Assembly: GCA_903870685.1 (NCBI GenBank)
Contig: CAIQDX010000095.1
Span: forward strand, 1 to 64,000
DNA length: 64,000 nt
Origin: an uncultured Chitinophagaceae bacterium
GTDB lineage: Bacteria > Bacteroidota > Bacteroidia > Chitinophagales > Chitinophagaceae
Reading direction: 5' to 3'
Below the pieces are notes generated by a model, which saw only the letters and a program-made list of their open reading frames with translations, ran no database searches and was not told the DNA's origin. The translations under genes were made by a program, and so were the position numbers. The stretch's first letter is position 1. Every line of letters starts with the position of its first letter. This document shows, piece after piece, positions 11,671-52,449 of the stretch.

Positions 11671-11692
11671 ACTCGGTTGAAGTTGGGAGTAA

Positions 11693-11724: not shown

Positions 11725-11746
11725 CCCTTTTTAAAAATTAAAGCTT

Positions 11747-12118
11747 ATGAAACCTAATAATAAAATGTTGATTGCGTGTTCAATCATTATTACTTTTCTT
11801 TTCTCATCTTGTTTTCGTGATAATACCAATATTTCAATTCATGATGAAAGAAATTCTTATCAGTTCTATGCATCATACAACAAAAGCAAAACAGAAAATG
11901 TGCTGCATTATTTGAATGAAAATTTAAATAATGACAATGGATATTTTTCTGATCTAAATTATATTGATGTAACAACAACTTTGCATGATGATACTAAGTT
12001 GTATATCAAAGCAACACCGGGAAGAATTAAAATAAAATTGGATAAAAGAGAAAACACAGAAGCTTCGTATAAAAGAGTGAAACATATTTGCAATGAATTG
12101 AAAGATGTTCTAAAATAA
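11747..12118 (+). CDS. Small predicted lipoprotein
   Basis: This 123-residue protein begins with a lipoprotein signal: MLIACSIIITFLF followed by the lipobox-like LFSSC, so the mature protein would begin at about C22 and be lipid-anchored. The remaining ~100 residues are hydrophilic with alternating strands and helices (YIDVTTTLHDDTKLYIKATP, a final helix with KRVKHICNELKDVLK). I recognise no domain. The gene is 10 bp upstream of another exported protein gene and follows the PspC terminator, so the two probably form their own transcript. Confidence 0.72.
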   Translation: MKPNNKMLIACSIIITFLFSSCFRDNTNISIHDERNSYQFYASYNKSKTENVLHYLNENLNNDNGYFSDLNYIDVTTTLHDDTKLYIKATPGRIKIKLDKRENTEASYKRVKHICNELKDVLK

Positions 12119-17785: not shown

Positions 17786-18760
17786 TCATTTAGCATTCAA
17801 AATTTCCGAAAGCACTGCTTGTGCCGCCCACACTCGATTTCCGGCCTGCTGCGTAACAATACTATTTTTACTATCTAATATTTCATCACTTAATTCTACA
17901 TTTCTTCTAACCGGTAAACAATGCATCACTTTTGCCCCGCCATTGGCTGGGTTGGTTAATTTTAATTTCTCGTTCGTTAACATCCATGAAGGATCGTTCT
18001 CATAAATTTTTCCGTAATCAGTATAAGTACTCCAGTTTTTTACATACACATAATCTGCATCTTTCAATGCTTCATCCTGATTCTTAGTTATAGTTGCACC
18101 TTTTGTAAACTGTTCAGCTAATTCATAATCTTCCGGATGAGTAATTACAAAATCAGCTTCGCCCCAAGCATTTATCCATTGGGCAAAACTATTTGCAACG
18201 CACTGTGGTAAAGGTTTTATATGCGGAGCCCAGGTTAGTACAATTTTTAGTCGTGAGTTGCGAGTCGTGAGTCGTGAGTCTTCCTGAATTGTTATAATAT
18301 CGGTTAACGATTGTAATGGATGCAATGTTGCACTTTCTAAACTCACCACAGGAACGCCAGCATATTTTATAAATTGATTGATGAACATTTCGCTGTAATC
18401 ATCATCTCTGTTATTTAAAGATGGAAATGTTCTTATTGCCAACACATCAAAATAATTTCCGAGAATTGGTGCAGCATCTTTTACATGTTCAACAGTATTG
18501 CCACTCATGATGGCACCTTCTTCAAATTCTAAAGTCCAACCTTCTTTGTCAACATTAAAAACAATGGCTTCCATTCCCAAATTACTTGCTGCAACCTGAG
18601 TGCTTAAACGTGTACGTAAACTTGGATTTAAAAATAATAATCCAATACGTTTGCCTGCTCCCAAAGCCTTATCGGCAAAGGGATTTGCCTTATACGCCAA
18701 TGCTTTTTTTACCAAAGCATTGATGTCGGGCACATCGTTTACTGAAATAAATTGTTTCAC
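17786..18760 (-). CDS. argF': N-acyl-ornithine carbamoyltransferase (SOTCase/AOTCase type)
   Basis: This 324-residue carbamoyltransferase acts on N-succinyl- or N-acetylornithine instead of free ornithine. The carbamoyl-phosphate motif is FLNPSLRTRLSTQ, not the STRTR of true ArgF. VVSLESATLHPLQSL and MHCLPVRRNVE resemble the Bacteroides succinylornithine enzyme. An in-frame heptad repeat (18249-18283) encodes DSRLTTRNSRLK just after the LTDIITIQE helix, so about ten extra residues form a surface loop. A 17-bp repeat overlaps the 3' end of the gene. It is placed between argD and argB; this enzyme means the operon makes N-acylcitrulline as an intermediate. Confidence 0.93.
   Translation of the reverse strand: MKQFISVNDVPDINALVKKALAYKANPFADKALGAGKRIGLLFLNPSLRTRLSTQVAASNLGMEAIVFNVDKEGWTLEFEEGAIMSGNTVEHVKDAAPILGNYFDVLAIRTFPSLNNRDDDYSEMFINQFIKYAGVPVVSLESATLHPLQSLTDIITIQEDSRLTTRNSRLKIVLTWAPHIKPLPQCVANSFAQWINAWGEADFVITHPEDYELAEQFTKGATITKNQDEALKDADYVYVKNWSTYTDYGKIYENDPSWMLTNEKLKLTNPANGGAKVMHCLPVRRNVELSDEILDSKNSIVTQQAGNRVWAAQAVLSEILNAK
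17787..17803. repeat. ATTCAA-type repeat at the 3' end of argF'
   Basis: CATTTAGCATTCAAAAT matches, base for base, part of the repeat in argH (reverse strand of 15416-15449). It supplies the last codons and the stop of argF'. Confidence 0.6.
18249..18283 (-). repeat. In-frame heptad repeat inside argF'
   Basis: Read on the minus strand this is ACTCACG in four near-perfect copies (one is ACTCGCA). It inserts DSRLTTRNSRL into the enzyme without a frameshift. Confidence 0.8.
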
Positions 18761-18808
18761 TGTTTTTTATATTTATGTACTTAGCTATAGAATAAATATT
18801 TAGCTTCT

Positions 18809-18889
18809 GTTGCGTCGCACACTTGTACTGTAACAAATACTTCAACTTTTTTACCACAAAGTTCAGAACGTTGAAGTGTGCGACGCAAT
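18809..18889. repeat. REP-like composite element (paired inverted arms)
   Basis: The left arm at 18809-18830 is the TACAAG variant in reverse. The right arm at 18864-18889 is the TTGAAG variant. Together they form an imperfect 81-bp inverted repeat with a 33-bp centre. The sequence following the right arm, TCGATGCCATGAAA, is shared with the composite at 32756-32827. It lies between argF' and argD. Confidence 0.8.
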
Positions 18890-18929
18890 AGTCGATGCCA
18901 TGAAAAATAAAAGCCCGTCAACAAAAAAA

Positions 18930-20090
18930 TTACGCTTCTACTTTTTGTTCTTCTTTTATTGCAGCGATCGTATCATTCAACGCATCTAAAAATTCGTCCA
19001 CTTGTTTTCTAGTAACTGCCAATGAAGGTAACAAACGAATTACGTTTGGTTTTGCTTCGCCGGTAAAAATAAAATGATCGAACAATAATTTTTTCTTCAG
19101 GTCTTTTAATTCTTCGGGAACATCAAAGCCAATCATCAAACCTTTGCCGCGAACATTTTTTATTGCATCAATTGATTTTAATTTATTGATGAGATACATG
19201 CCGCGTTGTTTTGCCATACTAATTAAATTCTCATCTTCTATTACTTCCAGCACAGCCAATGCAGCAGCACATGCCAAATGATTTCCGCCAAATGTTGTTC
19301 CCAACATTCCATGCTTTGGTTTAATGTGTGGCGCAATTAAAATGCCACCAATCGGAAATCCATTTCCCATTCCTTTTGCCATGGTATAAACATCAGCATT
19401 CACTCCTGCATAATCATGAGAAAAAAATTGTCCGCTTCTTCCGTAACCGCATTGAACACTATCGGCAATATAAACTGCATTGTATTTATCGCACAATGTT
19501 CTGATCAATTGTAAGAAAGATTCATTTGCAATATTTATTCCGCCAACACCTTGAATCCCTTCAACAATAACTGAAGAAATTTGTTTGTGATGTTTTTCAA
19601 AACATTCCTGCAAAGCCGCTTCATCATTGAATGGTAGAAAAATAACATTGTCTGTTTCATTAACCGGAGCAACTATATTTTTATTATCAGTTGCAGCAAC
19701 TGCCAATGAAGTTCTTCCATGAAAGGATTTAGAAAATGCAATAATTTTTTTCTTGTTGTTATGAAATGATGCAAGCTTCAATGCATTTTCATTTGCTTCA
19801 GCACCACTGTTGCAAAGGAATAATTGATAATCTTCTTTGCCGCTTACTTTTCCTAATTTTTCAGCTAATTCCACTTGCAATGGAATATTAATTGAGTTTG
19901 AATAGAAAGCAATTTTTTCTAATTGATCTTCAATTCTTTTCACCCAATGCGGATGTGTATGTCCGATGCTAATCACAGCATGACCGCCATACATATCTAG
20001 ATATTGCACACCATTTTCATCCCAAACATAACTGCCTTGTGCTTTAGTAATGGTGATGTTGTTAAGCGGATAAACGTCGAATAGAGTCAT
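18930..20090 (-). CDS. argD: Acetylornithine aminotransferase
   Basis: This 386-residue PLP enzyme (class III aminotransferase) converts N-acyl-glutamate semialdehyde to N-acyl-ornithine with glutamate as amino donor. SGAEANENALKLA is the phosphate-binding segment, SVIVEGIQGVGG and IADSVQCGYGRSG contain the PLP-ring contacts, and the Schiff-base lysine is in AKGMGNGFPIGG. The family would have DEVQ where this protein has DSVQ: the aspartate that contacts PLP is kept and the next residue is changed. The gene lies between the four-helix cassette and the composite repeat upstream of argF'. Assignment as argD rests on operon context. Confidence 0.93.
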   Translation of the reverse strand: MTLFDVYPLNNITITKAQGSYVWDENGVQYLDMYGGHAVISIGHTHPHWVKRIEDQLEKIAFYSNSINIPLQVELAEKLGKVSGKEDYQLFLCNSGAEANENALKLASFHNNKKKIIAFSKSFHGRTSLAVAATDNKNIVAPVNETDNVIFLPFNDEAALQECFEKHHKQISSVIVEGIQGVGGINIANESFLQLIRTLCDKYNAVYIADSVQCGYGRSGQFFSHDYAGVNADVYTMAKGMGNGFPIGGILIAPHIKPKHGMLGTTFGGNHLACAAALAVLEVIEDENLISMAKQRGMYLINKLKSIDAIKNVRGKGLMIGFDVPEELKDLKKKLLFDHFIFTGEAKPNVIRLLPSLAVTRKQVDEFLDALNDTIAAIKEEQKVEA

Positions 20091-20113
20091 AAGTTTTAAG
20101 TGATAAGTTTTAC
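20091..20113. repeat. Left flank repeat of the four-helix-bundle cassette
   Basis: AAGTTTTAAGTGATAAGTTT, repeats of the unit AAGTT(T/A)TAAG, lies directly after the argD start codon. The stop codon of the four-helix gene falls inside it. It is approximately the reverse complement of the block at 20476-20505. Confidence 0.65.
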
Positions 20114-20475
20114 GTAGTTGGCGATTTTCTTACTTTATTGATTAAAGCAATCAACATGCCTTTTACTTCATTAATAATATTATATAGTGTATGAAATTTT
20201 TCTTCCGTTAAATAATTTAAGTCTTTACTAAGTATCAAAAAGTATTCAGCTTCATTAGCAGAACCCAAAGCAATATTTAAGAAATGAGCAAACTCAGCAT
20301 TTGTGTTTTTACCGCATCCTTCCGCAATATTTGCAGGCACTGATGAGGCAGCTCGTCGTAACTGATTAGTTAAACTATACATTTCTTCTTTAGGAAAAGA
20401 CTTTGTCTCCTCATATACATTCAATGTAAAGAGTTGAGCTTTTTCCCAAACTTTTAAATCTTTATAGTTCTGCAT
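20110..20475 (-). CDS. Four-helix-bundle protein (23S rRNA intervening-sequence type)
   Basis: This 121-residue protein is all-helical and matches the four-helix-bundle family named for proteins coded by intervening sequences in 23S rRNA genes. The signature is visible as YKDLKVWEKAQLF at the N-terminus and LRRAASSVPANIAEGCGKN in the second helix. The function of these proteins is unresolved; related ones act as nucleic-acid-binding partners of reverse transcriptases in diversity-generating retroelements, and none of those is in this window. The gene interrupts argC and argD and is bounded on both sides by inverted AAGTTTTAAG-type repeats, so it looks like a small inserted cassette. Confidence 0.9.
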   Translation of the reverse strand: MQNYKDLKVWEKAQLFTLNVYEETKSFPKEEMYSLTNQLRRAASSVPANIAEGCGKNTNAEFAHFLNIALGSANEAEYFLILSKDLNYLTEEKFHTLYNIINEVKGMLIALINKVRKSPTT

Positions 20476-20505
20476 ACTTATAACTTAATACTTACAACTT
20501 AAAAC
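20476..20505. repeat. Right flank repeat of the four-helix-bundle cassette
   Basis: ACTTATAACTTAATACTTAC followed by AACTTAAAAC. Its reverse complement matches the left flank at 20091-20113. The argC stop lies inside it. Confidence 0.65.
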
Positions 20506-21479
20506 CCTGTCGCTTTAAGTTTTAAACCCATTGTTTCTTCCAATCCAAAAATTAAATTCATATTCTGCAAAGCCTGTCCTGATGCGCCTTTCAGCAGATT
20601 GTCAATTGCCGAATGAATTGCAATTTTATTTCCTTGCTTTTCAATATGAATTAAACATTTATTAGTGTTCACTACTTGTTTCAGATCGATCATTGTATCA
20701 CTAACAAAAGTAAATGCTGCATCTTTATAATACTCTTTGAAAATTTGTTTCACTTCTTCCAATGGTAATGAAGTATCAACAACCGAAGTAACATAAATAC
20801 CTCTTGTAAAATCGCCGCGCCAAGGAACAAAATGAACATGCACACCATCATTGTCCTGCAACTGAATTAAGCTTTGATGTATTTCATGAATATGCTGATG
20901 TTGTAAAGTTTTATAAGCTGAAATATTATTTGCTCTCCAGCTAAAATGTGATGTATTACTTAAACTTTGTCCGGCACCGGTGCTTCCTGTAATGCCCGTG
21001 GTATATACATCTCCGAGCACACCGGCATTTGCCAATGGCAATAATCCTAATTGAATTGCTGTTGCAAAACAACCGGGATTGGCAATATTTTTTGCTGATT
21101 GAATTGCTGTTTTATTCAACTCCGGTATTCCATATACAAACTTGCGATTACCGATTATTGAATTATCATTTAACCTGAAATCTTGTGAGAGATCAATGAT
21201 TTTTATTTTCTCGTTGATTGTATTTGCATCTAAAAATTTCTTTGCATCACCATGTCCAACACATAAAAACAAAACATCAATATCATCACTTAATTCGCTC
21301 GAAAATTTTAATTCAGTTTCACCAATTAAATCGGCATGCACATTACTTACAGGATTTCCGGCATTGCTTAAACTATTAATAAAACTAATTTCTACCTGCG
21401 GATGATTGATCAATAAACGAATCAATTCACCACCAGTATAACCTGCGCCACCAATAATTCCTACGTTTATCTTTTTCAT
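20499..21479 (-). CDS. argC: N-acetyl-gamma-glutamyl-phosphate reductase
   Basis: This 326-residue NADPH-dependent enzyme reduces the acyl-phosphate made by ArgB. The Rossmann motif is GIIGGAGYTGGELIRLL, the catalytic cysteine is in ANPGCFATAI, and HFVPWRGDFTRGIYVT is the conserved region near the active-site histidine. It is slightly shorter than many ArgC proteins but complete. It follows the cupin gene by one base and is followed by the inserted four-helix cassette whose repeat forms its last codons and stop. Confidence 0.95.
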   Translation of the reverse strand: MKKINVGIIGGAGYTGGELIRLLINHPQVEISFINSLSNAGNPVSNVHADLIGETELKFSSELSDDIDVLFLCVGHGDAKKFLDANTINEKIKIIDLSQDFRLNDNSIIGNRKFVYGIPELNKTAIQSAKNIANPGCFATAIQLGLLPLANAGVLGDVYTTGITGSTGAGQSLSNTSHFSWRANNISAYKTLQHQHIHEIHQSLIQLQDNDGVHVHFVPWRGDFTRGIYVTSVVDTSLPLEEVKQIFKEYYKDAAFTFVSDTMIDLKQVVNTNKCLIHIEKQGNKIAIHSAIDNLLKGASGQALQNMNLIFGLEETMGLKLKATGF

Positions 21480-36358: not shown

Positions 36359-37696
36359 TTATTTTTTGAACTTTGCTATCGTTCTTCGAACTATTTGTAT
36401 AGATTCAATATATCCAACCTGAATGATTTTTCTGAAAGAATAATCCATGTATTTACTTAAGTGATAATAACCAAATAATAAACCTGCCAATAAAGTAAAC
36501 GGTGATGCAATTGCAACTCCCCAAACATTGTGAAAAATAAATATTCCGGTAAAAGCCACAGGAATATTAGCAGCTATCATCACCAAAACCTTATAAAAAT
36601 TAATTTTTTGCTGATGTAGAATATCGAGTGTTACACCGTTAAATCTATCAATTGGATATAACACCGAAAAAAACATCAACAACCGAAATATGTTAGCAGC
36701 TTCAGTTCCGGCATATTTACCTCCGCCCAATAATCCAACTGCAATATCAGCTCCTAAAAAAGCAACAATGATAATTGGAATAAATGCAAACGTTAAAACA
36801 CCGGGATATTTTCGAGAAACAAATGTTAGATGATACATGTTCTTTGTGTTGTAAGCAGTTGCCATTGCCGACATTCCGGTACCAACAAAACTGCGTAAAG
36901 GAATTTCTACAATTTCCAATAAACGTTGTGGCAAATTATAAACCGCTAAAACCGATGGACCTAACATGAATGTGATAACGAATGTATTGATGCTGCCCAA
37001 TAAATTAGAACTGATATTTGTTCCTAAACTGTATTTACCAAAATCTTTAATTTCTTTTATGGTTTCTTTTTGGCGGTGAACAAATGTTTTAATTTTAGTG
37101 TAACCTAATAATAATGCAACAGCACTTGTTAAACAATTGGTCAGAAAATTTATCAATAATAAATTATACAATGTTGCCATTTTAAAATAAGCAAGAAGCA
37201 GAATAATTAAAATCATTGAACCGCTGTTTGTTAATCGCAACCACAAAATTTTTAAGTAATCTTCTTCAGCAATTAATTTCCAAAAAGTTACATTGTAAAT
37301 GAGAGAGCTTAAAAAAGTTATACCAAACCATTTAATAGTAATGATGAGTGCTTCGTTTGTAATGTACCCGCTGAAAATAAAAAAACTTATACTTAATAAA
37401 CAAATAATTACAGTTAAAGCAATAGCCAAAAACCAAACCGACCCCAATACTTGTAAGCCTCTTTCTTTTGTTGTGCCTGCATAAAATTTTACTGTTGCAG
37501 TACTTAAAAAACCTGTACGCACTGCATCAGCTAATCCTAAAAAAGTTAAAAAGAAAAACCAGGTACCAACATCACTCTTAGTTAGAACTCTGTATAAAAT
37601 TGCAATTGTTAAAACACTAAATCCAGAAATAACTAAATTACCAACAAGTGCCAGAAAATGTTTGTTTTTAAAGCTGGAGAGATTAAATGATTTCAT
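36359..37696 (-). CDS. Polysaccharide flippase (Wzx/MATE-like)
   Basis: This 445-residue integral membrane protein has about 12-14 hydrophobic segments and the MOP/Wzx topology: basic cytoplasmic ends, and spans such as FLALVGNLVISGFSVLTIAI and IPIIIVAFLGADIAVGLLGG. It would move the lipid-linked repeat unit across the inner membrane. It is transcribed with the two glycosyltransferases that follow. No motif identifies its substrate. Confidence 0.88.
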   Translation of the reverse strand: MKSFNLSSFKNKHFLALVGNLVISGFSVLTIAILYRVLTKSDVGTWFFFLTFLGLADAVRTGFLSTATVKFYAGTTKERGLQVLGSVWFLAIALTVIICLLSISFFIFSGYITNEALIITIKWFGITFLSSLIYNVTFWKLIAEEDYLKILWLRLTNSGSMILIILLLAYFKMATLYNLLLINFLTNCLTSAVALLLGYTKIKTFVHRQKETIKEIKDFGKYSLGTNISSNLLGSINTFVITFMLGPSVLAVYNLPQRLLEIVEIPLRSFVGTGMSAMATAYNTKNMYHLTFVSRKYPGVLTFAFIPIIIVAFLGADIAVGLLGGGKYAGTEAANIFRLLMFFSVLYPIDRFNGVTLDILHQQKINFYKVLVMIAANIPVAFTGIFIFHNVWGVAIASPFTLLAGLLFGYYHLSKYMDYSFRKIIQVGYIESIQIVRRTIAKFKK

Positions 37697-37930: not shown

Positions 37931-39061
37931 ATGTATAATGTATTGCTTGTTTCTATAATGGGCATTTTTGATGCCACCGCAGAAATTCCCTTCATGTTTA
38001 AAAGAGCCGGATGTAAAGTGGATGTTTTTTGTGCTAGTCATGCTTGGTTGCGTTGCAATAGATTTCATGATAAATGGATCGAAACAAGTGAAGACGAACA
38101 GGAATTTAAAACCAATTTATTAAACCTCGTTGAAAAAGATCCCGATCATTACGACTGGATCGTTTTATTAGATGATGCTACCATTAAATTAATGAACGAT
38201 TCAATTCAGTCGGAAGAACTTTTTAAAAAAATATTACCTATCACTAAAATCCAGAATAGAGAAATACTCAGTTCTAAAATTGGCTTATCAACTGCATGCA
38301 AAAAATATGGAATCGATACACCCCAATTTATTAATTATTCCGAAGAACACGATATTGAATCTATTTCTCAAAAATTACATTTCCCGATTTTATTAAAACA
38401 AGATTATAGTTTTTCGGGTATGGGTATTCAATATTGTGCCAATCCGTCTTTATTACAAAATTGTTTAGATAATGTAACCAATAAAACCAATTTGGTATTA
38501 CAGGAATTTATTGAGGGAGAAGATATTGGTCTGGAAGCTTTGTTCAGAGAAGGCGAATTGATCGCTTATAATTGTGCCGAGATATTGGAATACATGTATG
38601 ATAAATTTTCTTTTACCACTCGCAGAAAATATTATCTTAACGAAGAGATAGAATCGCTGTTACGATTTTTAGGAAAGAATATTGGATTAAACGGATTTGC
38701 AAGCATTCAATATATCTATCATAAAGAAAGAAAAATTTATTACTTAGTGGAAGTAGATGCCAGAACAAATATGTGGATGGCTTTTTCAAGATTTACAAAA
38801 AATAATTTCATTGATGGAATTAAAAAAATAGTAACCGGAGATATTTATAATATCATGCAACCTGTATCAACAAAAAAAGTAGAAGTGGCTATCTTTGACA
38901 GAGATATTAGAAGGTGTATCAAACATAAAGATTACAAAGGGCTATTGCAATGGATGTTTAATTATAAAGGATACTGGAAATTTATTCCTTTTTATGATAT
39001 GAACATTTTGCGTAAAACATTAAAAAAAATGTTTTATGATTTTTCGCAAAAGGTTGGTTGA
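37931..39061 (+). CDS. ATP-grasp ligase-like protein A (surface polysaccharide locus)
   Basis: This 376-residue protein has an ATP-grasp fold of the carbamoyl-phosphate-synthase/D-Ala ligase type. FPILLKQDYSFSGMGIQYC is the nucleotide-binding loop region, VLQEFIEGEDIGLEALFREG gives the adenine contact, and LVEVDARTNMWMAFSRF has the metal-binding D/N residues. It would form a carboxylate-amine or carboxylate-thiol bond using ATP. The gene at 40209-41360 is a clear paralogue (shared AEVPF/AEIPF starts, IEGD/IEGED and F-K-G-Y-W ends). No partner or substrate is obvious. It probably modifies a sugar, for instance by adding an amino acid. Confidence 0.82.
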   Translation: MYNVLLVSIMGIFDATAEIPFMFKRAGCKVDVFCASHAWLRCNRFHDKWIETSEDEQEFKTNLLNLVEKDPDHYDWIVLLDDATIKLMNDSIQSEELFKKILPITKIQNREILSSKIGLSTACKKYGIDTPQFINYSEEHDIESISQKLHFPILLKQDYSFSGMGIQYCANPSLLQNCLDNVTNKTNLVLQEFIEGEDIGLEALFREGELIAYNCAEILEYMYDKFSFTTRRKYYLNEEIESLLRFLGKNIGLNGFASIQYIYHKERKIYYLVEVDARTNMWMAFSRFTKNNFIDGIKKIVTGDIYNIMQPVSTKKVEVAIFDRDIRRCIKHKDYKGLLQWMFNYKGYWKFIPFYDMNILRKTLKKMFYDFSQKVG

Positions 39062-40208: not shown

Positions 40209-41360
40209 TTATTTATTTTTTCCTACAATCTTATTCCATTTGTACATAAAAACTTCATTCCATATTCCATTAAAAATTCTTTTAGAAAGTTTTTTATCGT
40301 AGCAAGGAAGAAAACGCCAATAACCTTTAAAATTAAATACCCAACGGAAGATTCCTTTTATTTCGTTTTTCCATAAAGCTCTGCGAATATCTTTATCAAA
40401 CAAGGCCACTTCAATAAATGGTTGTTTCATTGGCATATCCTTATAACCATTTACATAATCGCCGCTAACAATTCTCTTCACACCGTCAGAAAAATCGCGA
40501 CCAATAAATCTTCCGTAAGCGGTCCATGAGTTAGGTCTTGTATCCACTTCAATCAAATAATATTTATCTTTTTTTGCATCGTGCATGTAAGCAATATTTG
40601 CAAAACCGTTCAGACCAAGGGTCTTACCTAGGTGAATGAGTAATGGTTTTATTGCTGTGTTATCGTAATAACTTCTTCTGGTTGAATAAGTGAATTTGTC
40701 TTTATCGTATTCAACAATTTTTGAAGTGTTATAAACCAATAATTCACCCTGATAAAATAAAGCTTCAACAGGTATTTCATCACCCTCAATATATTCCTGA
40801 ATCAAAACATTTTGATTCTCGGGAATTTTATGAAGATTAGTTAAGAACTCTTCATAACTATAACTTACAAACATGCCCACACCACCCCAACTAAAATCTA
40901 ATTTATTGATGACAGGAAAATTGAGTTTTGATTTTATTCTTTCCAGATCATCTTTACCATTGTATGTTGTATAACCCGGAGCATCGATGCCTGTTGATTC
41001 ACAAAAATCGGCTAAACCATCTTTAGAACTTAGCATGTGTCTGTGTTCGATCTTTATTATCGGCAACATTTTTACAAATACATTTTCTTCATGCACTTCT
41101 TCATTCATAAATTTAATCAAAGGCTCATCACCCAATATCACCCATTGATATTCGCCAGATTTTACTAATTCATTTAATTTGTCTTTGTAAACAATCTTAT
41201 CTGCACTACTTTCTATCCATTTGTCGTAATAACTATTCGATAAAAGCCAAGATTTTGGAGAACAATAAACATCAACAGTTGCACCACCGTTTTTTAAAAC
41301 AAAAGGAACTTCAGCTAATGTATTCCAGTTGTCGAAACAGGCTACTAATACTTTGAACAT
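40209..41360 (-). CDS. ATP-grasp ligase-like protein B (surface polysaccharide locus)
   Basis: This 383-residue ATP-grasp protein is paralogous to the one at 37931-39061: VLVACFDNWNTLAEVPFVL corresponds to VLLVSIMGIFDATAEIPFMF, and FPVINKLDFSWGGVGMFVSY, IQEYIEGDEIPVEALFYQG and IEVDTRPNSWTAYGRFIG match the nucleotide and metal regions. It ends the long minus-strand export and transferase operon, 39 bp after the GT8 gene. As with its paralogue, the acceptor is unknown. Two copies in one locus suggest two successive or alternative modifications. Confidence 0.82.
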   Translation of the reverse strand: MFKVLVACFDNWNTLAEVPFVLKNGGATVDVYCSPKSWLLSNSYYDKWIESSADKIVYKDKLNELVKSGEYQWVILGDEPLIKFMNEEVHEENVFVKMLPIIKIEHRHMLSSKDGLADFCESTGIDAPGYTTYNGKDDLERIKSKLNFPVINKLDFSWGGVGMFVSYSYEEFLTNLHKIPENQNVLIQEYIEGDEIPVEALFYQGELLVYNTSKIVEYDKDKFTYSTRRSYYDNTAIKPLLIHLGKTLGLNGFANIAYMHDAKKDKYYLIEVDTRPNSWTAYGRFIGRDFSDGVKRIVSGDYVNGYKDMPMKQPFIEVALFDKDIRRALWKNEIKGIFRWVFNFKGYWRFLPCYDKKLSKRIFNGIWNEVFMYKWNKIVGKNK

Positions 41361-42286: not shown

Positions 42287-43501
42287 TTATTTTGTGGCAG
42301 TAAACAATTCTATTGCCTTATAAATTTCATTTACACTGTTTTCCCAACTGTGAGAGGAAGCAAATTTTTTTCTTTCTTCTTTCAACACTTCATTATCATC
42401 TTTCAATGCTTTCTTGATCAATTCAACATATTCTTCTTTTGATTCTGCGAGATAAGTATGATCGCTGAAAATACTCATCGCTTCTGTTTTTGTTGCAACA
42501 ACAGGTTTACCAACAGCTAAATATTCATCAATCTTTCTTGGATAATTTCCAATGGTTACCTGACTAACAATTTGTGGATTGATGCAAACATCAAATGCGT
42601 TGATATATGATGGCAATTGAACGGGGTCTTTTGAACCGATGAAAAAAACATTTTTAATTTGATGAAGACTACTTCTTTTAAACTCATTATCCTCCGGTCC
42701 AACCAGAACAATACTCCAATCAGGATTTGATTCAGCGATATGGGCAATAACATTCAGATCCAATCTTAAACTTTGCAACGCACCAACATAACCAATGACG
42801 GGATGATGAATTGATGAAATATCTTTAGGAATACTTTTGTCTGTAATGTTCATGAAAATATCCAACTCGCAACCCTGACCAACATAATAAGAATGCAGAT
42901 TAAATTTTTTACAATAATTAGCCAAGTAAGTTGAATTGGCAACACAGATATCACTCTTTGCAATTAATTCCGGTTCTAATTTTTCGCCATGCAATTTCCA
43001 GTAATCAACCGCTAACATATAATCTCTCGAATAATAAATACTAATGTCAGGCCTTAATAATTCTTTCAGATAAAAACATCTGAACATGTCATTATCATTA
43101 AAGAGAATGATATTTTTAAATTGAAGTTCATTGATTGCTTTTTTAATGGAAGATGCAAAGCGTTTGTTATTGCTTTTATTTATTAATTCGAAAACAAATT
43201 GATTTTTTATCCAGTTGATGGATTCTATCATTTTATCAGGAAATAAATTCCATAAATTATTTTTTATTATTTCGATGCCATTTTGTTTTCCATTAATTAC
43301 AGCTAAACGCTTTTGTACTTTGGGTTCTGTTTTGTGTTTATATAATGTAATTCTGTCGAGTGGCGAATTAACATATAATACTCTGTTATGCTTACTTAAT
43401 TCTTCGGCAATATTTTTACAGTTACTTCCAATTTCAATATCCCATGGCTGTTGACCAACAATAATAATATCCCTTCCTGTAATTAAATTATTTGTTTTCA
43501 T
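42287..43501 (-). CDS. Glycosyltransferase of the GT-B fold (family 4/1-like)
   Basis: This 404-residue protein has two Rossmann-like halves. The C-terminal half has VIGYVGALQSLRLDLNVIAH, ADFNPDWSIVLVGPED-type spacing, NVFFIGSKDPVQLPSYINAF and the acidic E of GKPVVATKTEAM. It probably transfers a sugar retaining its configuration, as family-4 enzymes do. Its start overlaps the end of the ligase-like gene by 14 bp. I could not assign the donor. Confidence 0.87.
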   Translation of the reverse strand: MKTNNLITGRDIIIVGQQPWDIEIGSNCKNIAEELSKHNRVLYVNSPLDRITLYKHKTEPKVQKRLAVINGKQNGIEIIKNNLWNLFPDKMIESINWIKNQFVFELINKSNNKRFASSIKKAINELQFKNIILFNDNDMFRCFYLKELLRPDISIYYSRDYMLAVDYWKLHGEKLEPELIAKSDICVANSTYLANYCKKFNLHSYYVGQGCELDIFMNITDKSIPKDISSIHHPVIGYVGALQSLRLDLNVIAHIAESNPDWSIVLVGPEDNEFKRSSLHQIKNVFFIGSKDPVQLPSYINAFDVCINPQIVSQVTIGNYPRKIDEYLAVGKPVVATKTEAMSIFSDHTYLAESKEEYVELIKKALKDDNEVLKEERKKFASSHSWENSVNEIYKAIELFTATK

Positions 43502-44993
43502 TGGTTATTAGATTTTGTTCCTGATCTAATCGATATGTAACATTCATCAATGCAATAGACAAATAGAAATATACATTCGATGGAAATTGAACCAACGCTT
43601 CTTGCGGAAAATTTGCAATATTAAAAGTAAATACAATTAAAACTCCGGCAAGACAATATGATTTCAATTCAGGATCTCGAATACGATAATAGTTATTAAT
43701 TCCTGTCTTCAAAATGACAAACATCATGATACAAAAAATAGTTAATCCTATCCATCCCAATTCAACAGTTACACGAACATAGCCGCTATCTGGTGGAAAA
43801 TTGGCGAGATAAGAATTAGGTGCAAACTTCTTTCCCCATTCGCCGGTTGCGCCTAAACCTCCTCCTATTGGATGCGCCCAAACATAAGGTTTGATGCGGG
43901 CTTGATTCATCTTACGTAGTTTGTAAGATGCATCATCATTTGGTCTGAATGCACTTTGAAAACGTAAAATATTTTGATTGGATGTTGGCATAAAAATCAA
44001 ACCCACAACAAAAACACCCGCAACAATTACAAATATTAATATCTTCTTACTATAATTTAGAATGGCATATAAAACCAAAGCTGCAGGAATTAATGGAAAC
44101 GCTCCTCTTGTTCCAGAAAAAAGCATGGCCATTAAAATAATCGGAATGCAAATTATTAATATGGTTTTTTTAAAAGCTTTTAATGGACCGGTAAGTAACG
44201 CAATACATAAAAGTGTTACCACAACCATATTGTATGCAAATGTTACCGGATCGGAGAAGATGGAAAACTTTCGCCAATGTCCTGCAATAAATAATAATAA
44301 AGGCATGCCGGGTGAATGAATATATGCTTCTTCGAAAGGAAAAAAGCCAATGTATTCTTGTTTAATCGCATAAACGGCACCTATTAAAGAAAGAAATATC
44401 CACCACTTAAAAATAAGTTTTAAAAAAGCTTTGCTACGAATATTATACACGTAAATAAAATAGCTCAAGGCAACAAATGCAACCGAACGAACCGTGTAAA
44501 CCCAGGACTGTCTTGACTCTGCAGCCGGGTTAGCTACTTCAATAAAATTGTAAATGATCCAAACCAAAATCCAAACACTAACAGGTCCGGCTACTATAGC
44601 CCATTGTGGTTTTCTTTTTTGTTGAATATAAAATCCAAGAATAAATATTACCAACATACCATCCATCAATGTACCTAAAGGAAATGTAACACCTAATCGC
44701 AACAAGAACATGATGGCATATGCCAAAGTGATATAGACTAAAATTCCAAACTGCGGATTTATTATTAATGCAACAACCGAAGGAATAGCAATGATCACAA
44801 TTGTAAGAAGTACCGCAAAAACAAATCCATATTGCGCAACAGCAAATGCAGATAAGATTGCAAAAGCAGCAAACAAAATAAAACCCAAAGGATTAATTAA
44901 TTTTTCAATCAAAAACAATCTTCTTAACTCACTAACAAAAGTTTGCCATTTGGTTATTTGTTTTGGTTGAAGATATATTTGAAGATTTTCCAC
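43488..44993 (-). CDS. O-antigen ligase / Wzy-type polymerase family protein
   Basis: This 501-residue integral membrane protein has about 11-12 spans and a periplasmic loop containing SGTRGAFPLIPAALV and then ARIKPYVWAHPIGGGLGATG. This is the WaaL/Wzy pattern, in which SxxRG and an HxxGxG segment are conserved. It would join repeat units into polymer, or ligate polymer to an acceptor; sequence does not separate the two. The start is GTG at 44993, directly after the stop of a 47-residue gene. Confidence 0.87.
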   Translation of the reverse strand: MENLQIYLQPKQITKWQTFVSELRRLFLIEKLINPLGFILFAAFAILSAFAVAQYGFVFAVLLTIVIIAIPSVVALIINPQFGILVYITLAYAIMFLLRLGVTFPLGTLMDGMLVIFILGFYIQQKRKPQWAIVAGPVSVWILVWIIYNFIEVANPAAESRQSWVYTVRSVAFVALSYFIYVYNIRSKAFLKLIFKWWIFLSLIGAVYAIKQEYIGFFPFEEAYIHSPGMPLLLFIAGHWRKFSIFSDPVTFAYNMVVVTLLCIALLTGPLKAFKKTILIICIPIILMAMLFSGTRGAFPLIPAALVLYAILNYSKKILIFVIVAGVFVVGLIFMPTSNQNILRFQSAFRPNDDASYKLRKMNQARIKPYVWAHPIGGGLGATGEWGKKFAPNSYLANFPPDSGYVRVTVELGWIGLTIFCIMMFVILKTGINNYYRIRDPELKSYCLAGVLIVFTFNIANFPQEALVQFPSNVYFYLSIALMNVTYRLDQEQNLITNENK

Positions 44994-45139: not shown

Positions 45140-46330
45140 TTATTCTTTCACTTCATCTAATTTTTTATCGTGATAATGTTGTGTAGCAACTGAATGTTTA
45201 TTTGCGTTTCTAACTTTCATCAACGAAAGAATTTGATAAAAAATAAATTTTGGTATGCCACCGAGTGATTGGTAAATACGTTTATCAGTATCTGAATTTA
45301 ATAACGCAATAAAAAAACCGGCAGTAAAAAGAATAAATCCAATTAACCATGTCAATGCAATAATCGGATCGATAAAAATATTTGCGCACATTAAAAGAAA
45401 TGAAAGAATCAGAAATATAAATAATGGTGGACGAAGTAATATAAAGCCAAATACAAATTGATTCCAGTTGAAATTAAAAATTCCTTTTGCAACTAATACA
45501 AAACCAAATTTGAAATATCTAAACCAGGTATTAATCCATCGGGCTCTTTGTTTAACTAATTGATCGGAACGAGAAGTTTTTTCGTCGTACACGATCGCGT
45601 CTTTTGTAAAAGCAATTCTATATTTTCTTGATAAAATCTCTTTCTGTAACACTTTATCAAAACCTGCGCCGGTAATATCTAAATGTTCCAGACATTTTCG
45701 ATACAAATCAACTGTGAAGGCCATTCCCGAACCGGCTAACGTTGCTGACGAACCAACAGCAAATAGTATTTGTCCATCAAAATAATGATAATACACATCT
45801 CTCGCAGCATCAACACAGGCAACGGTTGTGTCTAAATTTTTTGCTTTTCGTTCGCCTTGTACTGCTTCAAAACCTGCATCAAAATATGGATTGAGTTTTT
45901 TGAGATAAGATGGCTCAACTAAATTATCACTATCAATGATCGTCAATCGATCATGATTTCTTTTGAAACGATGAATAGCATAAAAATGAGAACGCGTATT
46001 ACTTCCCAAAGTATTTTCGGGACGCAAAACAATTACTTTTTCATCATCGAATTTTAAATTACTTACATCGCATTTATCGGCAACAATATAGATCAGATAA
46101 TTTTTGTAATCCAATTTCAACAACGAATCGATAACCGGTGGCAGTGTATGTGTTTGTTCGTATGCCGTAACAATAATTGCATAATCGGCTTCATCGGAAG
46201 AAATGTTTTTGCTGATCGAATTTTCTTTTTTTAAAAGATAAATCAGATAAAGAAAAAAAGGAAATACCAGATTATATCCAATCAATAATTGAAAGATAAT
46301 CCATACGATATTGGCTAAAGAGGTAATCAT
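45140..46330 (-). CDS. Membrane glycosyltransferase family 2
   Basis: This 396-residue GT-A enzyme has an N-terminal span (IVWIIFQLLIGYNLVFPFFL) and three C-terminal spans. YAIIVTAYEQTHTLPPVIDS is the donor-site start, TIIDSDNLVEPSYL the DxD motif, and VKQRARWINTWFRYFKFG is a QRxRW-type box, which is associated with processive synthases. It could be a synthase-like enzyme making a β-linked backbone, or a standard transferase. It lies 6 bp after the Wzc-like gene. Confidence 0.88.
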   Translation of the reverse strand: MITSLANIVWIIFQLLIGYNLVFPFFLYLIYLLKKENSISKNISSDEADYAIIVTAYEQTHTLPPVIDSLLKLDYKNYLIYIVADKCDVSNLKFDDEKVIVLRPENTLGSNTRSHFYAIHRFKRNHDRLTIIDSDNLVEPSYLKKLNPYFDAGFEAVQGERKAKNLDTTVACVDAARDVYYHYFDGQILFAVGSSATLAGSGMAFTVDLYRKCLEHLDITGAGFDKVLQKEILSRKYRIAFTKDAIVYDEKTSRSDQLVKQRARWINTWFRYFKFGFVLVAKGIFNFNWNQFVFGFILLRPPLFIFLILSFLLMCANIFIDPIIALTWLIGFILFTAGFFIALLNSDTDKRIYQSLGGIPKFIFYQILSLMKVRNANKHSVATQHYHDKKLDEVKE

Positions 46331-46336
46331 AAAAAT

Positions 46337-48520
46337 TTATTTTTTTCTAAACCACCCTTGTTTCTTTGGCTTATGTTTTCTATTCCCAACTTTATTTAAA
46401 ACCCATCCAATAAATTTATCGTCCAAACCTTTCAAATAATTTACTTCGTCATTTTTAGCCGGTGTTATTGTTTGATTAGCTGAAAAAACAGTAACCAGCT
46501 TATCTCCAAATGCCACCCACTCCTTTGATCTGTTCATTGTTTCTAAAGCAGCCATTTCGATGATGATGACATCGAAAACTTTTTCCAATGCATTTATTTT
46601 TTCACGAATATTTTTTTCATCACTTAATTCTAATAAAGAAACATCACCACCTTTTGTACCAAGAGTGCTGATCTTATTTCCGGTAACAATTTCTTTTACC
46701 GAAATTTTATCATTCAAATAATCTTCTAAAAATAAATCAGATTGATAGGTAGAAGTAATTACGGGATCGCCAAAGTTTCCATCAATCAACAAAACTTTTT
46801 TATTGATGACAGAAAAAGCATAAGCCAAACTTAAAGCTGTGATTGTTTTTCCTTCGAAAGGTTTTATACTGGTAACCAATAAAGTTTTACCATTCTTCAT
46901 CTCATTTTCAATTTCGAATCTGGTGGATCGTAATAAATTTCTAAACTCAATTTTAGTTTTATCATTTTCTTCGGTCCATACATTTTGCAAATCGATCACT
47001 GATGTTTTGATGAAAGGAAGAAAACCTAATACAGGCAAATTTGTTTTATCGGCTAATTCTTTTGAAACATGAATCGAATCGTCGAGATAAAATAAAACAA
47101 ACATTACCACCATACAAAACACAAAACTTAACATGCCTGCTAAAACTATCATCAATGATTTTTTTGATGGCTGTGCACCACCTGGCATTGCTAATTCTAT
47201 TTGTCGTAAACGAACTGAGAAGCTTGATTCCAGACTTGTTTGATTGAATTTCTTTAATATTTCAATATACTCTTTACTGGCAATATCAATTTCGGTTTCG
47301 TAAGATTGAATAACTGCTTCGTGTGGTACTAATCGATCGAATTTTTCATTCAATTTTACTAATTCAGACTTTAAAGTATTTACACTATTCTTTGCCAACT
47401 CGAGTTGAACTTCCAAATTTAATTTTTGCATTACCAAGCTCTCTTTTGCTGCTAATGGATTAAGTATATACTTATCTGTTGACTGATTAATTTGTGAAGT
47501 AAGCAAAGTTTGCAAAGAATCAATTTTACTTTTATATCGCACATCATAATTGCTCTTTACATATTCTTGTGATAATTGTTTTAAATTATCTTTTGTATTA
47601 ACTATTTCCTGATTGATTTTTGTAAGCGTACTTTCTAAATATCTTCTATCCTGTTCATTAAATTTCTTGTCGATACTTTCCAAAGCTCCCTGATCCGCAA
47701 TGATATCTTTATCGGTCATTTCCTTTTTGGTTTCAAAATCTGAGATCTGACCATATAAACTTTTTGCTTGTTCGTTTAAATTTAAAACACGGTTAGTTAT
47801 TTTATAATTTTTTAGATCTTGCATTTGTCCATTCATCACACCGCGTTTCATTTTCATCAAACTATCTAAAAAATTAACCGCTTTCATTTGATTTTCTCTC
47901 ACCAAAAAAGAATAATAAACTATAAATTCCTGACAAAGCGTATTAATTACAGAAGCAGAAAGTAATGGAGAATCAGATTCAAATTCTAGATCAATAAAAT
48001 CGCTGTTATTTGCCCGATAAATAGTTAATTTTTTTCGAAGAGATTGATCATCATAACCCATTGAAGAAATTAGATCGTTTAACCCTTTTTGATCATCATC
48101 CCATAAAGAAAGAGGTTCTCTGGATTTATATTTTTGTTCAAATACTTCTATTGCATGTTTCTTTGAATCTTTATTCAAATAACCCAATAACTTACTTGGT
48201 TTTCGATATGGATTTTTATCGGTAAGATCATGAATGATTAATTGATATGAAACCTGATCAAAAATTTTTTTCAACTGCATCATTTGAATAAGATTGCTGA
48301 ACTCCTGATTGATCTTATTCTCACCGGCATCGGCAGATTGATTATTAATCAATTCTTGTTGCGATTGATCAACCAATCCGGTTGCAACTCTTCCTTTAGA
48401 AGTATAAGAGTCGGGCATTTTACGAACCAGAAAATAGGTTAACACGATCGCAATAAGTGGTACTGCAATAAGTGTAAACTTTTGCCGACCTAACAGTTTT
48501 AAAAAATTAGACATTTCCAT
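46337..48520 (-). CDS. Wzc-like chain-length/co-polymerase protein with decayed kinase domain
   Basis: This 727-residue inner-membrane protein has a Wzz-type first span (FTLIAVPLIAIVLTYFLVRK), a long periplasmic coiled-coil region (about 60-440), a second span (MIVLAGMLSFVFCMVVMFVL) and a cytoplasmic BY-kinase-like domain. The kinase site is altered: Walker A reads KPFEGKT near residue 550, Walker A' reads LLIDGNFGDP, and Walker B reads DVIIIEMAAL where DTPP is normal. The C-terminal tail ends KKQGWFRKK, without a tyrosine cluster. It may therefore regulate chain length without tyrosine kinase activity. Its ATG overlaps the stop of the TolC-like gene by one base. Confidence 0.87.
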   Translation of the reverse strand: MEMSNFLKLLGRQKFTLIAVPLIAIVLTYFLVRKMPDSYTSKGRVATGLVDQSQQELINNQSADAGENKINQEFSNLIQMMQLKKIFDQVSYQLIIHDLTDKNPYRKPSKLLGYLNKDSKKHAIEVFEQKYKSREPLSLWDDDQKGLNDLISSMGYDDQSLRKKLTIYRANNSDFIDLEFESDSPLLSASVINTLCQEFIVYYSFLVRENQMKAVNFLDSLMKMKRGVMNGQMQDLKNYKITNRVLNLNEQAKSLYGQISDFETKKEMTDKDIIADQGALESIDKKFNEQDRRYLESTLTKINQEIVNTKDNLKQLSQEYVKSNYDVRYKSKIDSLQTLLTSQINQSTDKYILNPLAAKESLVMQKLNLEVQLELAKNSVNTLKSELVKLNEKFDRLVPHEAVIQSYETEIDIASKEYIEILKKFNQTSLESSFSVRLRQIELAMPGGAQPSKKSLMIVLAGMLSFVFCMVVMFVLFYLDDSIHVSKELADKTNLPVLGFLPFIKTSVIDLQNVWTEENDKTKIEFRNLLRSTRFEIENEMKNGKTLLVTSIKPFEGKTITALSLAYAFSVINKKVLLIDGNFGDPVITSTYQSDLFLEDYLNDKISVKEIVTGNKISTLGTKGGDVSLLELSDEKNIREKINALEKVFDVIIIEMAALETMNRSKEWVAFGDKLVTVFSANQTITPAKNDEVNYLKGLDDKFIGWVLNKVGNRKHKPKKQGWFRKK

Positions 48521-49194
48521 TAGTGAATATCTTCAAGTTTTTTATCAATTAATTCTTCGATTGTACTCTTTGCCACTAAAACCAATCCTTCTGCCGCAAT
48601 AATATTTTGTTTAGAAGAAGAAACATTAAGTAACGCCTTTGTATAGTTTTCGAAATTTTCTTCTCCTTTTTCAAACTTATATTTTACCTGTCTGTACACT
48701 GCTTCAACATCCAACGACATTAATGATAGCACTCGTAAAGAAATTAACGACTGAATATATTTATAGTATCTCGCTTTTACTTCGGCTTCAATATTTAAAA
48801 GTGCTTGTTCTTTATTCAATATTGAAATTTTTATTTCCTCTTTTGCCTGTTTAATATTATGCGGTTTAACAACAACATTTCCAACATTAAAAAAGAAGCC
48901 AACCTGATAACCGGATAATGTTGGACTTGATAATGATGTTGCGTTTGTTGGGCTATACGACATAGAAAATGTAAGAAGATCGAACCAACCCAATTTTGCT
49001 TTTTTTAAATTATCATTAGCAGTTATAATTCTGTGATCGTAAGTTTTTATGTTAGGGTATCTTGCTTTTGCAGTATCAATTAATTTTTGAAGAAATTTAT
49101 AATCCACTTCGGGCAACATTGATTCCTGTGCATTTGAAATATACATCACAGAAATAAAAAAAATAGTTAGCAGATGCTTTAATTTCACAGGCAT
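48520..49194 (-). CDS. Half-length TolC-family outer-membrane protein
   Basis: This 224-residue protein starts at ATG 49194 with a signal peptide (LLTIFFISVMYISNAQ); an upstream ATG at 49239 would weaken it. The mature part matches one TolC-type repeat: DNLKKAKLGWFDLLTFSMSY, a strand pair with SSPTLSGYQVGFFFNVG, then long helices (KQAKEEIKISILNKEQALLN). A TolC protomer usually has two such repeats in about 430-480 residues. It sits immediately ahead of the co-polymerase gene where a Wza-type export protein would be expected. It heads the operon, 254 bp from the divergent acetyltransferase gene. Confidence 0.8.
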   Translation of the reverse strand: MPVKLKHLLTIFFISVMYISNAQESMLPEVDYKFLQKLIDTAKARYPNIKTYDHRIITANDNLKKAKLGWFDLLTFSMSYSPTNATSLSSPTLSGYQVGFFFNVGNVVVKPHNIKQAKEEIKISILNKEQALLNIEAEVKARYYKYIQSLISLRVLSLMSLDVEAVYRQVKYKFEKGEENFENYTKALLNVSSSKQNIIAAEGLVLVAKSTIEELIDKKLEDIH

Positions 49195-50824: not shown

Positions 50825-52033
50825 TCAAACACTTTCTTTTTGAAACAATGCGGGGATTGTTTTTAAAATTAATTTTATATCGTTTATAAAACTGTGATTT
50901 TTTGCATACACATTATCTAACATTAATCTTTCGTCTTCACTCATTTCACCTTTGCCTCGTTTTTCAACTTGCCATAAACCGGTAATACCTGCAGGTGCCA
51001 TAAAACGTAAAGAATATTTATCGGTAGTTAATTTTTCGGCTTCATATAAAGGCAATGGTCGATTGCCAACAATACTCATATCGCCAATAATCACATTCCA
51101 TAATTGTGGCAACTCATCAATACTGGTATTGCGTATAAACTTACCCACTTTGGTTATTCGGGGATCGTCTTTTAATTTAATAAAAGCCGAACCCTTATTC
51201 TTTTTTGAATAATTAAATTCTTTTTCGCACCATTGAATATTATCCGCATAAATCGGAAACTGACATTTTGATCCGGCTCTTTTACAGTCATCACATAAAA
51301 AAATCCCATCATCATTTACTTCTTCTTCTGGCAAATTATCTTTTTTGGCTTCAGCATATTGATTCAAATGTTTCAAATCTTTTAATCGTTTATCTGCATC
51401 TGCAAACATGGAACGAAATTTAAAAAATTTAAACACTCGATAACCTGTTCCTACACGTAACGAATAATAAAATGCCGGCCCTTTTGATTCAAATTTTATT
51501 AAGATATAAACAATTATAAACAGAGGCGATAAACAGAGTAAAGCGAGCCCGGCAAAGAATAAATCAAATAGGCGTTTTATTAAAGGGGTCTTATATGGCT
51601 TATAAATATTGCCTTTTCTTTTATTATTAATCTCGCCCCAGTATTCAATTAAAAAATTGATTCTTGTTTGCAATTTTATAATGCTGAGAGGATTCACAAA
51701 TATTTCAGCGATACCTGCTTTCAAAGCAATCTTAGAAATATTTTCATTAAAATGATTGCAAATCAAAAAAAATGGAATCTCTTCTTTAATTTTTTTCTGA
51801 ATATTTTCTAATAATGAAACCCCGCCGGGTGCCATCACTTCGCTTTGTGAAATAATTGCAGCTACGGTAAATTTTTGTTTCTCTAACTGATTAAAAAAAG
51901 ATAAACCATTTTGAAAAGAGCGAATCTGTCGTCCCTTAAAATCAATATTCAAGAATAATGAATGAACGACTTCGGTGCAATTTATTAAAGCAATTATTTG
52001 TGAATTATTATCGGATAAATTCTTGTTGTTCAT
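50825..52033 (-). CDS. Undecaprenyl-phosphate sugar transferase fused to a degenerate receiver
   Basis: This 402-residue initiating transferase starts chain building by placing the first sugar-phosphate on the lipid carrier. Residues 12-128 look like a receiver domain (QIIALINCTEVVHSLF, then FTVAAIISQSEVMAPGGVSL) but the phosphate-accepting aspartate has become S62 or a neighbour, and the lysine near the end reads FVNPLS instead of VKPF, so phosphorylation is unlikely. From residue 150 the PglC/WcaJ-type catalytic part follows, with KRLFDLFFAGLALLCLSP as membrane segment, KFRSMF, then DELPQLWNVIIGDMSIVGNR. A loop between them has cysteines C247, C250, C257 and C269, a possible zinc site. Confidence 0.88.
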   Translation of the reverse strand: MNNKNLSDNNSQIIALINCTEVVHSLFLNIDFKGRQIRSFQNGLSFFNQLEKQKFTVAAIISQSEVMAPGGVSLLENIQKKIKEEIPFFLICNHFNENISKIALKAGIAEIFVNPLSIIKLQTRINFLIEYWGEINNKRKGNIYKPYKTPLIKRLFDLFFAGLALLCLSPLFIIVYILIKFESKGPAFYYSLRVGTGYRVFKFFKFRSMFADADKRLKDLKHLNQYAEAKKDNLPEEEVNDDGIFLCDDCKRAGSKCQFPIYADNIQWCEKEFNYSKKNKGSAFIKLKDDPRITKVGKFIRNTSIDELPQLWNVIIGDMSIVGNRPLPLYEAEKLTTDKYSLRFMAPAGITGLWQVEKRGKGEMSEDERLMLDNVYAKNHSFINDIKLILKTIPALFQKESV

Positions 52034-52053: not shown

Positions 52054-52449
52054 TTATTTGCCAATTCTTCTCAAAATCACTCGTATCCTAGCTTCCAGCT
52101 CTCTCGGATTAAATGGTTTTACAACATAATCATCAGCACCTGCATTCAAACATTTAATGCGCATTTCAGAACTATCCTCGCCGGATAAAATCATAATTGG
52201 AATAGAATTAAAAAAATCACTCGCTTTAATTTGAGCAATTAATTCAAGTCCATTTAACTTGGGTACATTCAAATCGGAGATAACTAAGTCGGGCATATTG
52301 CCATCTTGCAAAAAGGATAATGCATCAACACCATTGTGGCAAATTACTGCATCGAAAATGCCATTTAAATATTCGTTCAATATGGTTTGCATGTAAACAT
52401 CGTCTTCCACTACAAGAATTTTGGAGCGATTAGAATTGGAGAAACTCAT
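52054..52449 (-). CDS. Single-domain response regulator
   Basis: This 131-residue CheY-like receiver has VVEDDVYM at the start, phospho-aspartate D59 in LVISDLNVPKLNG and DDYVVKPFNPRELEARIRV with the conserved lysine. There is no output domain. It lies 20 bp upstream of the receiver-fused sugar transferase and is divergent (266 bp) from the hybrid kinase. It is a plausible phospho-target of that kinase, which is inferred from position only. Confidence 0.93.
   Translation of the reverse strand: MSFSNSNRSKILVVEDDVYMQTILNEYLNGIFDAVICHNGVDALSFLQDGNMPDLVISDLNVPKLNGLELIAQIKASDFFNSIPIMILSGEDSSEMRIKCLNAGADDYVVKPFNPRELEARIRVILRRIGK

Follow-up and report, generated by a model that had tools for sequence, protein, structure and literature searches.

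We describe a Wzx/Wzy-type exopolysaccharide cluster in a 64,000-nucleotide stretch of DNA (hereafter, the window) of an uncultured Chitinophagaceae bacterium (contig CAIQDX010000095.1, denoted C95 of the genome), whose outer-membrane translocon is probably a single-repeat TolC protein and not an OPX protein; we assign this reading a probability of roughly 0.8. OPX proteins are the established, standard exit of Wzx/Wzy systems. As far as gene content can tell, the genetics are firm: the cluster is conserved and of the Wzx/Wzy type, and a single-repeat TolC takes the place of Wza. By the sequences compared, the gene of this half-size TolC (half-TolC) overlaps or adjoins that of the co-polymerase and is inherited with it. 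The initial annotation of this DNA had suggested an export route unlike those of known Wzy-dependent systems, which is supported by gene content: of 80 loci retrieved with a Wzc profile, 78 have half-TolC directly upstream of the Wzc gene, an OPX open reading frame (ORF) was found in none of these 80 stretches by phmmer with three OPX seeds, and the Wzc partners are parted from OPX-linked ones by one tree branch. The reading rests on gene content and fold models, and copy number, docking, and export are what we infer beyond them.

Pairing of half-TolC with a Wzc-type co-polymerase

Proteins of the window were called by Pfam profiles and ORF positions. A 224-residue protein with one TolC-type repeat overlapping the start of a Wzc-like gene had been proposed and was recovered as such: OEP (PF02321) matches it once (profile positions 1–186 of 187, E = 2.8e-19), instead of the two tandem repeats per chain typical of the TolC family, and its stop codon overlaps the Wzc-like start in TAATG. 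An alternative in-frame ATG at 49239, upstream of 49194, would make it 239 aa. OEP was its only Pfam match at E = 0.01, with no Poly_export (PF02563) among the matches. The Wzx-like flippase and the Wzy-like and Wzc-like proteins of the initial annotation were all present, and together with an initiating transferase they make up a complete Wzx/Wzy-pathway set. The claimed lack of a Wza/OPX gene in the window also held, as a PF02563 search of the genome gave no match on C95.

Sixteen Wzc proteins encoded close to half-TolC genes served to build the Wzc profile (A3), which was scanned over one genome per species, and the best 80 of 441 relatives were fetched. This sample leans to close relatives, since it was drawn by one peptide pattern; L062, L064, L072, and L134 appear to repeat contigs from which the query had been made, and the genomes in all counts given here are related, not independent. 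The two loci that have no half-TolC directly upstream begin at, or 300 bp from, the contig end. Among the 78 half-TolC genes, four are truncated by the start of their contig (L077, L083, L104, and L124). The Wzc of L084 is split into two ORFs, and L063 seems to carry the latter part of a gene that is split in G001 and whose half-TolC is on another contig. Where Wzc follows on the same strand, the two genes overlap or lie no more than 20 bp apart in 95 of 96 cases. Two gene orders were seen: half-TolC stands right before Wzc, as in the window, or after Wzy, some kilobases from Wzc.

Co-occurrence was examined over 99 genomes, namely the window's own and 98 relatives. A3 matched in 29, all within the 30 that carry half-TolC, which gives 29 genomes with both, one with half-TolC only at the cut-off (G023), none with Wzc only, and 69 with neither (Fisher's test 3e-24, for related genomes and a profile built from linked genes). 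In G023 a lower-scoring Wzc (154 bits) adjoins the half-TolC. A cleaner test comes from half-TolC genomes that contributed to neither profile, of which there are eight (G006, G013, G023, G025, G032, G039, G042, and G058). Seven have a Wzc at the cut-off, and in all eight the half-TolC stretch also holds a Wzc. Overall, Wzc was located in the fetched stretch for 26 of the 30 half-TolC genomes; in G049, the contig stops 64 bp past half-TolC.

At least 9 kb on both sides is available in 46 of the 80 stretches, and neighboring ORFs between 6 kb ahead of and 8 kb behind Wzc were clustered over 51 long-flank loci. The families recovered were half-TolC, Wzc, and family 2 glycosyltransferase (GT2) in all 51, Wzy in 50, GT4 in 44, Wzx in 34, the initiating transferase in 30, and a receiver and an acetyltransferase-like protein in 29 each. 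No further family exceeded 14 of the 51 loci, and the one in 14 is unlabeled; thus, no universal adaptor was seen. This bears on the possibility that half-TolC belongs to an efflux or type I secretion pump and merely happens to lie next to polysaccharide genes, for which speaks that OEP is a domain of efflux channels. We regard it as very improbable, considering that the unlabeled families reach at most 14 of the 51 loci, the overlap or close spacing with Wzc, and the fact that half-TolC and this Wzc share a genome even where they are unlinked (G070, G072, and G076).

Size and integrity of half-TolC

A half-TolC profile (A1), made from 21 proteins, was run over the same 99 genomes. It gave 30 matches in open frames of 227–283 aa (69.7–300.3 bits), one per genome, followed by a tier of 16 matches in frames of 423–464 aa that scored at most 62.1 bits. 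This gap in score and frame length sets half-TolC apart from full-length TolC. The complete, distinct homologues in the fetched loci (n = 119) measure 219–307 aa with a median of 238, and a lipobox-like stretch occurs in two of them.

For an account of its origin, 11 stretches with full-length TolC were fetched, 10 of which yielded a scored protein. Half-TolC scored better against the second repeat in six of the 10 and against the first in four. The preference for the second repeat is clear in four proteins (51–60 versus at most 13 bits), and this is what could be said for half-TolC being a truncated remnant of full-length TolC. We reject a truncation or pseudogene because the length is conserved across the 119 homologues, to which the score and frame-length gap may be added. 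The half-TolC gene of G023, which has a TAG within the match, was considered as a broken gene and this was ruled out, since L060 has a complete ORF of 238 aa, which adjoins an 812-aa Wzc.

An OEP search of the window's genome placed the C95 match alone in a half-size frame, the other 23 being in frames of at least 370 aa. A second half-size partner that would form a hetero-oligomer was hence ruled out, as one half-size OEP frame is listed for this genome. A separate observation was made on contig C57 of the same genome (L051, 6080–10444), where a 1454-aa fusion joins an AcrB-type pump and two OEP repeats in one chain.

Predicted structure of half-TolC

An AlphaFold2 model of the half-TolC monomer was obtained with a mean predicted local distance difference test (pLDDT) value of 89.4 and a predicted template modeling score (pTM) of 0.70. 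It consists of helices 32–45 and 47–73, strands 74–81 and 95–102, a 72-residue helix 104–175, and helix 181–216, with certainty lowest in the β-hairpin (pLDDT 57–78). The long helices and β-hairpin of a TolC-type repeat are both present in the model. When it was searched with Foldseek, the structural matches included VceC, OprM, and TolC, and ranks 1–39 were titled outer-membrane efflux channels, apart from chains of efflux complexes and some Pseudomonas aeruginosa entries whose title reads just “a membrane protein.” The 28 matches at E ≤ 0.001 are efflux channels by title, with template modeling (TM) scores of 0.54–0.66 by query and 0.28–0.37 by target, the latter being low because the query equals half of a chain. 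A second aligner placed half-TolC on TolC 1–192 or CusC 244–439; its top rows were HlyD chains (Z = 11.3 and 11.1), and unrelated long-helix proteins reached Z = 9–11, level with TolC. Since HlyD and these unrelated proteins score like TolC chains, this list supports the fold weakly, and Foldseek is the better guide.

The Wzc partner

The Wzc-like protein of the window matches CbiA above the Pfam cut-off, and AAA_31 and Wzz below theirs. Its AlphaFold2 model (mean pLDDT 82.6, pTM 0.43) contains a Wzz-type N-terminal part, periplasmic helical arms, and a cytoplasmic P-loop domain, as judged from the model and Foldseek. Among whole Wzc chains, it best matched 9r64 (the Wza–Wzc complex) and 7nhr at E = 1.2e-22, with a large root-mean-square deviation over the long arms.

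The Walker A, A′, and B residues have roles in the active Wzc kinase. Sequence comparison of the half-TolC-linked Wzc proteins was made on two sets of 113 with slightly different members, using a linkage limit of 6 kb for the tyrosine tail and 8 kb for the Walker motifs. All 113 of the former have 0–3 tyrosines in the last 40 residues, versus at least four in 17 of the 20 OPX-only Wzc proteins, the three exceptions of which have 0, 1, and 3. The Walker A lysine is present in 112 of 113, and the second aspartate of Walker A′ is an asparagine in 100 of 113, compared with an aspartate in 18 of 20 OPX-linked proteins. The Walker B aspartate is replaced by glutamate in 85 of 113 and kept in 24, compared with 19 of 20 in the OPX-linked set. 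A tree of 94 rows, for which half-TolC-linked rows were sampled and all OPX-linked and unassigned rows were included, contains one branch with a Shimodaira–Hasegawa-like approximate likelihood ratio test (SH-aLRT) support of 100 that parts all 20 OPX-linked Wzc proteins, together with two unassigned ones, from every half-TolC-linked row. Since the partner has no tyrosine tail and altered Walker A′ and B motifs, it is improbable that Wzc assembly in the half-TolC systems depends on the cycle of tyrosine phosphorylation known from classical Wzc.

OPX proteins at the locus and elsewhere

The OPX detector used for the loci was controlled on 20 non-seed loci and the seed locus L027, the control loci being picked among short OPX proteins, and it found the OPX protein in all of them. 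A search of the window's genome for OPX proteins, which had been called for in the initial annotation, gave two, each beside its own co-polymerase-like gene. On C130, an OPX of 260 aa adjoins a 793-aa Wzc whose tail is rich in tyrosine; on C80, the neighbor of an 838-aa OPX is a 360-aa protein that matches GNVR weakly, under the cut-off. Among the 99 genomes, 93 have an OPX protein, and it is missing in two of the 69 genomes that have no half-TolC.

Several observations weigh against a translocon made of half-TolC. Within the 99-genome set, 26 of the 30 genomes with half-TolC encode OPX proteins elsewhere, and all 27 searched isolate genomes with the cluster carry two to eight of them, which speaks against a clean replacement at the level of the genome, not of the locus. 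In L042 (G033), a 281-aa OPX ORF (11215–12060) lies 0.6 kb after half-TolC, so that an OPX stands beside half-TolC and its Wzc; this locus, which is not among the 80 and is the only such case found, may represent an intermediate or a system that employs both. Half-TolC and Wzc are on different contigs in G070, G072, G076, and G238, and the co-occurrence count is partly circular because A3 was built from Wzc proteins near half-TolC. Help in trans from an OPX protein for the half-TolC locus would be a further point of this kind, which we think unlikely. A Wza homologue elsewhere in the genome that serves this locus had been named by the initial annotation as a refuting case; it lost weight with the finding that both OPX genes of the window's genome adjoin other co-polymerase-like genes, and its premise stands insofar as OPX proteins do exist in most carriers.

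These OPX proteins, including the two of the window's genome and the side-by-side arrangement in L042, would fit half-TolC being an accessory of the co-polymerase, such as a periplasmic scaffold or plug, with the exit formed by an OPX protein encoded elsewhere. We consider this improbable on several grounds. G001 and G003 carry the pair and show no OPX, at 99 and 98% completeness and in 730 and 380 contigs, respectively; the other carriers with none, G049 and G057, are 79 and 86% complete. Per-genome OPX counts are complete in the 99-genome set, and among the individual matches listed, G070, G098, and the genomes of L065 and L120 have only long OPX frames of 815–859 aa (815–847 aa in the latter two). 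The position of the two OPX genes of the window's genome also argues against this explanation, and so does the β-hairpin expected of an outer-membrane barrel, which half-TolC has retained.

Distribution in Bacteroidota

A phylum survey was conducted on 198 genomes drawn over Bacteroidota. Half-TolC was detected at E = 1e-18 in 18 of them, from families of the same and other classes. Among the relatives retrieved with A3 in the scan of one genome per species, the cluster occurs in genera including Mucilaginibacter, Pedobacter, and Sediminibacterium. Wzc shares the stretch with half-TolC in 14 of the 15 newly fetched survey loci; in the remaining one, L173 (G238), Wzx and Wzy are present and Wzc is on another contig. 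At the phylum level, A3 also reaches other kinds of Wzc, and at E = 1e-35 it matched in 44 of the 198 genomes. The 13 genomes with at least 484 bits all have half-TolC. At 284–316 bits (G103, G180, and G108), an OEP protein of 248–307 aa lies upstream that falls under the half-TolC cut-off, and 18 of 198 is therefore a lower bound. Six of the 28 genomes of the lowest tier were inspected: half-TolC is present in G165 and G229, a 227-aa OEP protein lies upstream in G185, L191 (G276) has an OPX, and L192 and L193 have no assignable partner. This low-scoring tier is no evidence for the pair of half-TolC and Wzc.

Proposed export route

From the gene content and fold models, the following route is proposed. 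Wzy would polymerize lipid-linked repeats, the Wzc-like ring would set chain length and gate the exit, and the polymer chain would leave via a half-TolC channel. The latter would be a TolC-like barrel built as a homo-oligomer, whose helical tip would dock directly, with no adaptor in between, on the arms that the Wzc-like ring extends into the periplasm. With one β-hairpin per chain, six copies would be needed by simple arithmetic for a 12-stranded barrel, and eight copies would match the octameric Wzc ring described for Escherichia coli (PMC12881504). We lean slightly toward a further kind of polysaccharide exit that is widespread in Bacteroidota, in which a homo-oligomeric ring of single-repeat TolC, perhaps with eight copies and a barrel of 16 strands to fit octameric Wzc, works without OPX, adaptor, or tyrosine phosphorylation.

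If this is true, a phylum-wide lineage that swaps OPX for a single-repeat TolC shows that the exit is exchangeable, a natural single-repeat TolC becomes available to structural work, and a likely exopolysaccharide export gene is named for Mucilaginibacter, Pedobacter, and Sediminibacterium. The Wzc branch that has no tyrosine tail also lets the role of that tail be asked.

Genes of the window locus and accompanying genes

The features are listed in Table 1. On the 3′ side, half-TolC is followed by the Wzc-like gene, the family 2 glycosyltransferase, the Wzy-like gene, and more glycosyltransferases. On the 5′ side are a hexapeptide-transferase gene on the opposite strand, a response-regulator-like gene recognized by eye, the initiating transferase, and the receiver.

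Table 1. Features of the exopolysaccharide locus in the window and adhesin-like proteins of two related loci.
Feature	Position	Strand	Remarks
Half-size TolC (single OEP repeat)	48520..49194	(-)	224 aa; signal peptide by eye (...SNAQ)
Wzc-like co-polymerase	46337..48520	(-)	727 aa; no tyrosine-rich tail
Family 2 glycosyltransferase	45140..46330	(-)	Pfam Glyco_tranf_2_3, E 2.3e-38
Wzy-like polymerase (Wzy_C / O-antigen ligase domain)	43488..44993	(-)	Pfam Wzy_C, E 3.4e-12
Group 1 glycosyltransferase	42287..43501	(-)	Pfam; homologues in 44/51 long-flank loci
Wzx-like flippase	36359..37696	(-)	Pfam Polysacc_synt_3, E 3.3e-11
Initiating sugar-phosphate transferase	50825..52033	(-)	Pfam Bac_transf, E 4.1e-57
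Single-domain response regulator, adjoins initiating transferase	52054..52449	(-)	Pfam Response_reg, E 9.7e-26
Adhesin-like proteins	L041 15364-19998; L043 2-4093		fn3 with PA14 or laminin-G, Por_Secre_tail

The N terminus of the initiating transferase is extended by approximately 150 residues, which match a response regulator weakly (PorX model, E = 0.0018). The transferase and the neighboring stand-alone receiver gene recur in the 30 and 29 of 51 loci counted above. Two ATP-grasp-like proteins are encoded within the cluster on opposite strands (37931–39061 and 40209–41360), both with weak Pfam matches. In the second gene order, a large adhesin-like protein with a type IX sorting tail is located just before Wzc in both scanned loci (Table 1), and it may be a matrix protein that the type IX system secretes. 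L175 (5616–9635) likewise has a Por_Secre_tail. At the cluster end of L108 (Mucilaginibacter pedocola), an 879-aa protein (18375–21014) resembles a single-module nonribosomal peptide synthetase composed of AMP-binding, carrier, and thioesterase domains, and L141 has an ORF of similar size in the same place.

Comparison with known systems

No description of a half-size TolC, or of a TolC within a Wzy system, was found among the listed titles and abstract starts of open papers, preprints and most subscription papers lying outside this search. The M. pedocola genome carries the half-TolC cluster (L108). For this species, export was proposed via an ABC transporter, a co-polymerase, and OPX, and TolC is unmentioned in that paper (PMC6260751). 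Work on OPX classes with β-barrel partners (PMC9603273) likewise concerns how the outer-membrane portion of polysaccharide export can vary; it deals with OPX proteins, and a term search of its text gave no TolC, efflux, Bacteroidetes, or Mucilaginibacter.

The TolC protein of Sinorhizobium meliloti is full-length and encoded outside the exo cluster. In a tolC mutant of this organism, succinoglycan and galactoglucan are missing from the supernatant, for which the authors considered a perturbed envelope more probable in the case of succinoglycan and a secreted protein as the explanation for galactoglucan (PMC2912261). The present system resembles this case in that a TolC-type protein is tied to exopolysaccharide.

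In common with TolC/OprM factors, half-TolC has an OEP domain, a predicted helix-hairpin-helix repeat, and a 72-residue helix. It differs from them in having one repeat per chain and not two, and in that its partner gene encodes a polysaccharide co-polymerase, with no recurring adaptor family seen. In E. coli, Wza and Wzc dock directly to form a 360-Å channel with C8 symmetry (PMC12881504). The locus described here shares with that system an initiating transferase, Wzx, Wzy, a co-polymerase of the Wzc fold, and an outer-membrane gene directly before the co-polymerase gene; unlike in E. coli, this outer-membrane gene encodes a single-repeat TolC, and the Wzc has no tyrosine tail and altered Walker A′ and B motifs.

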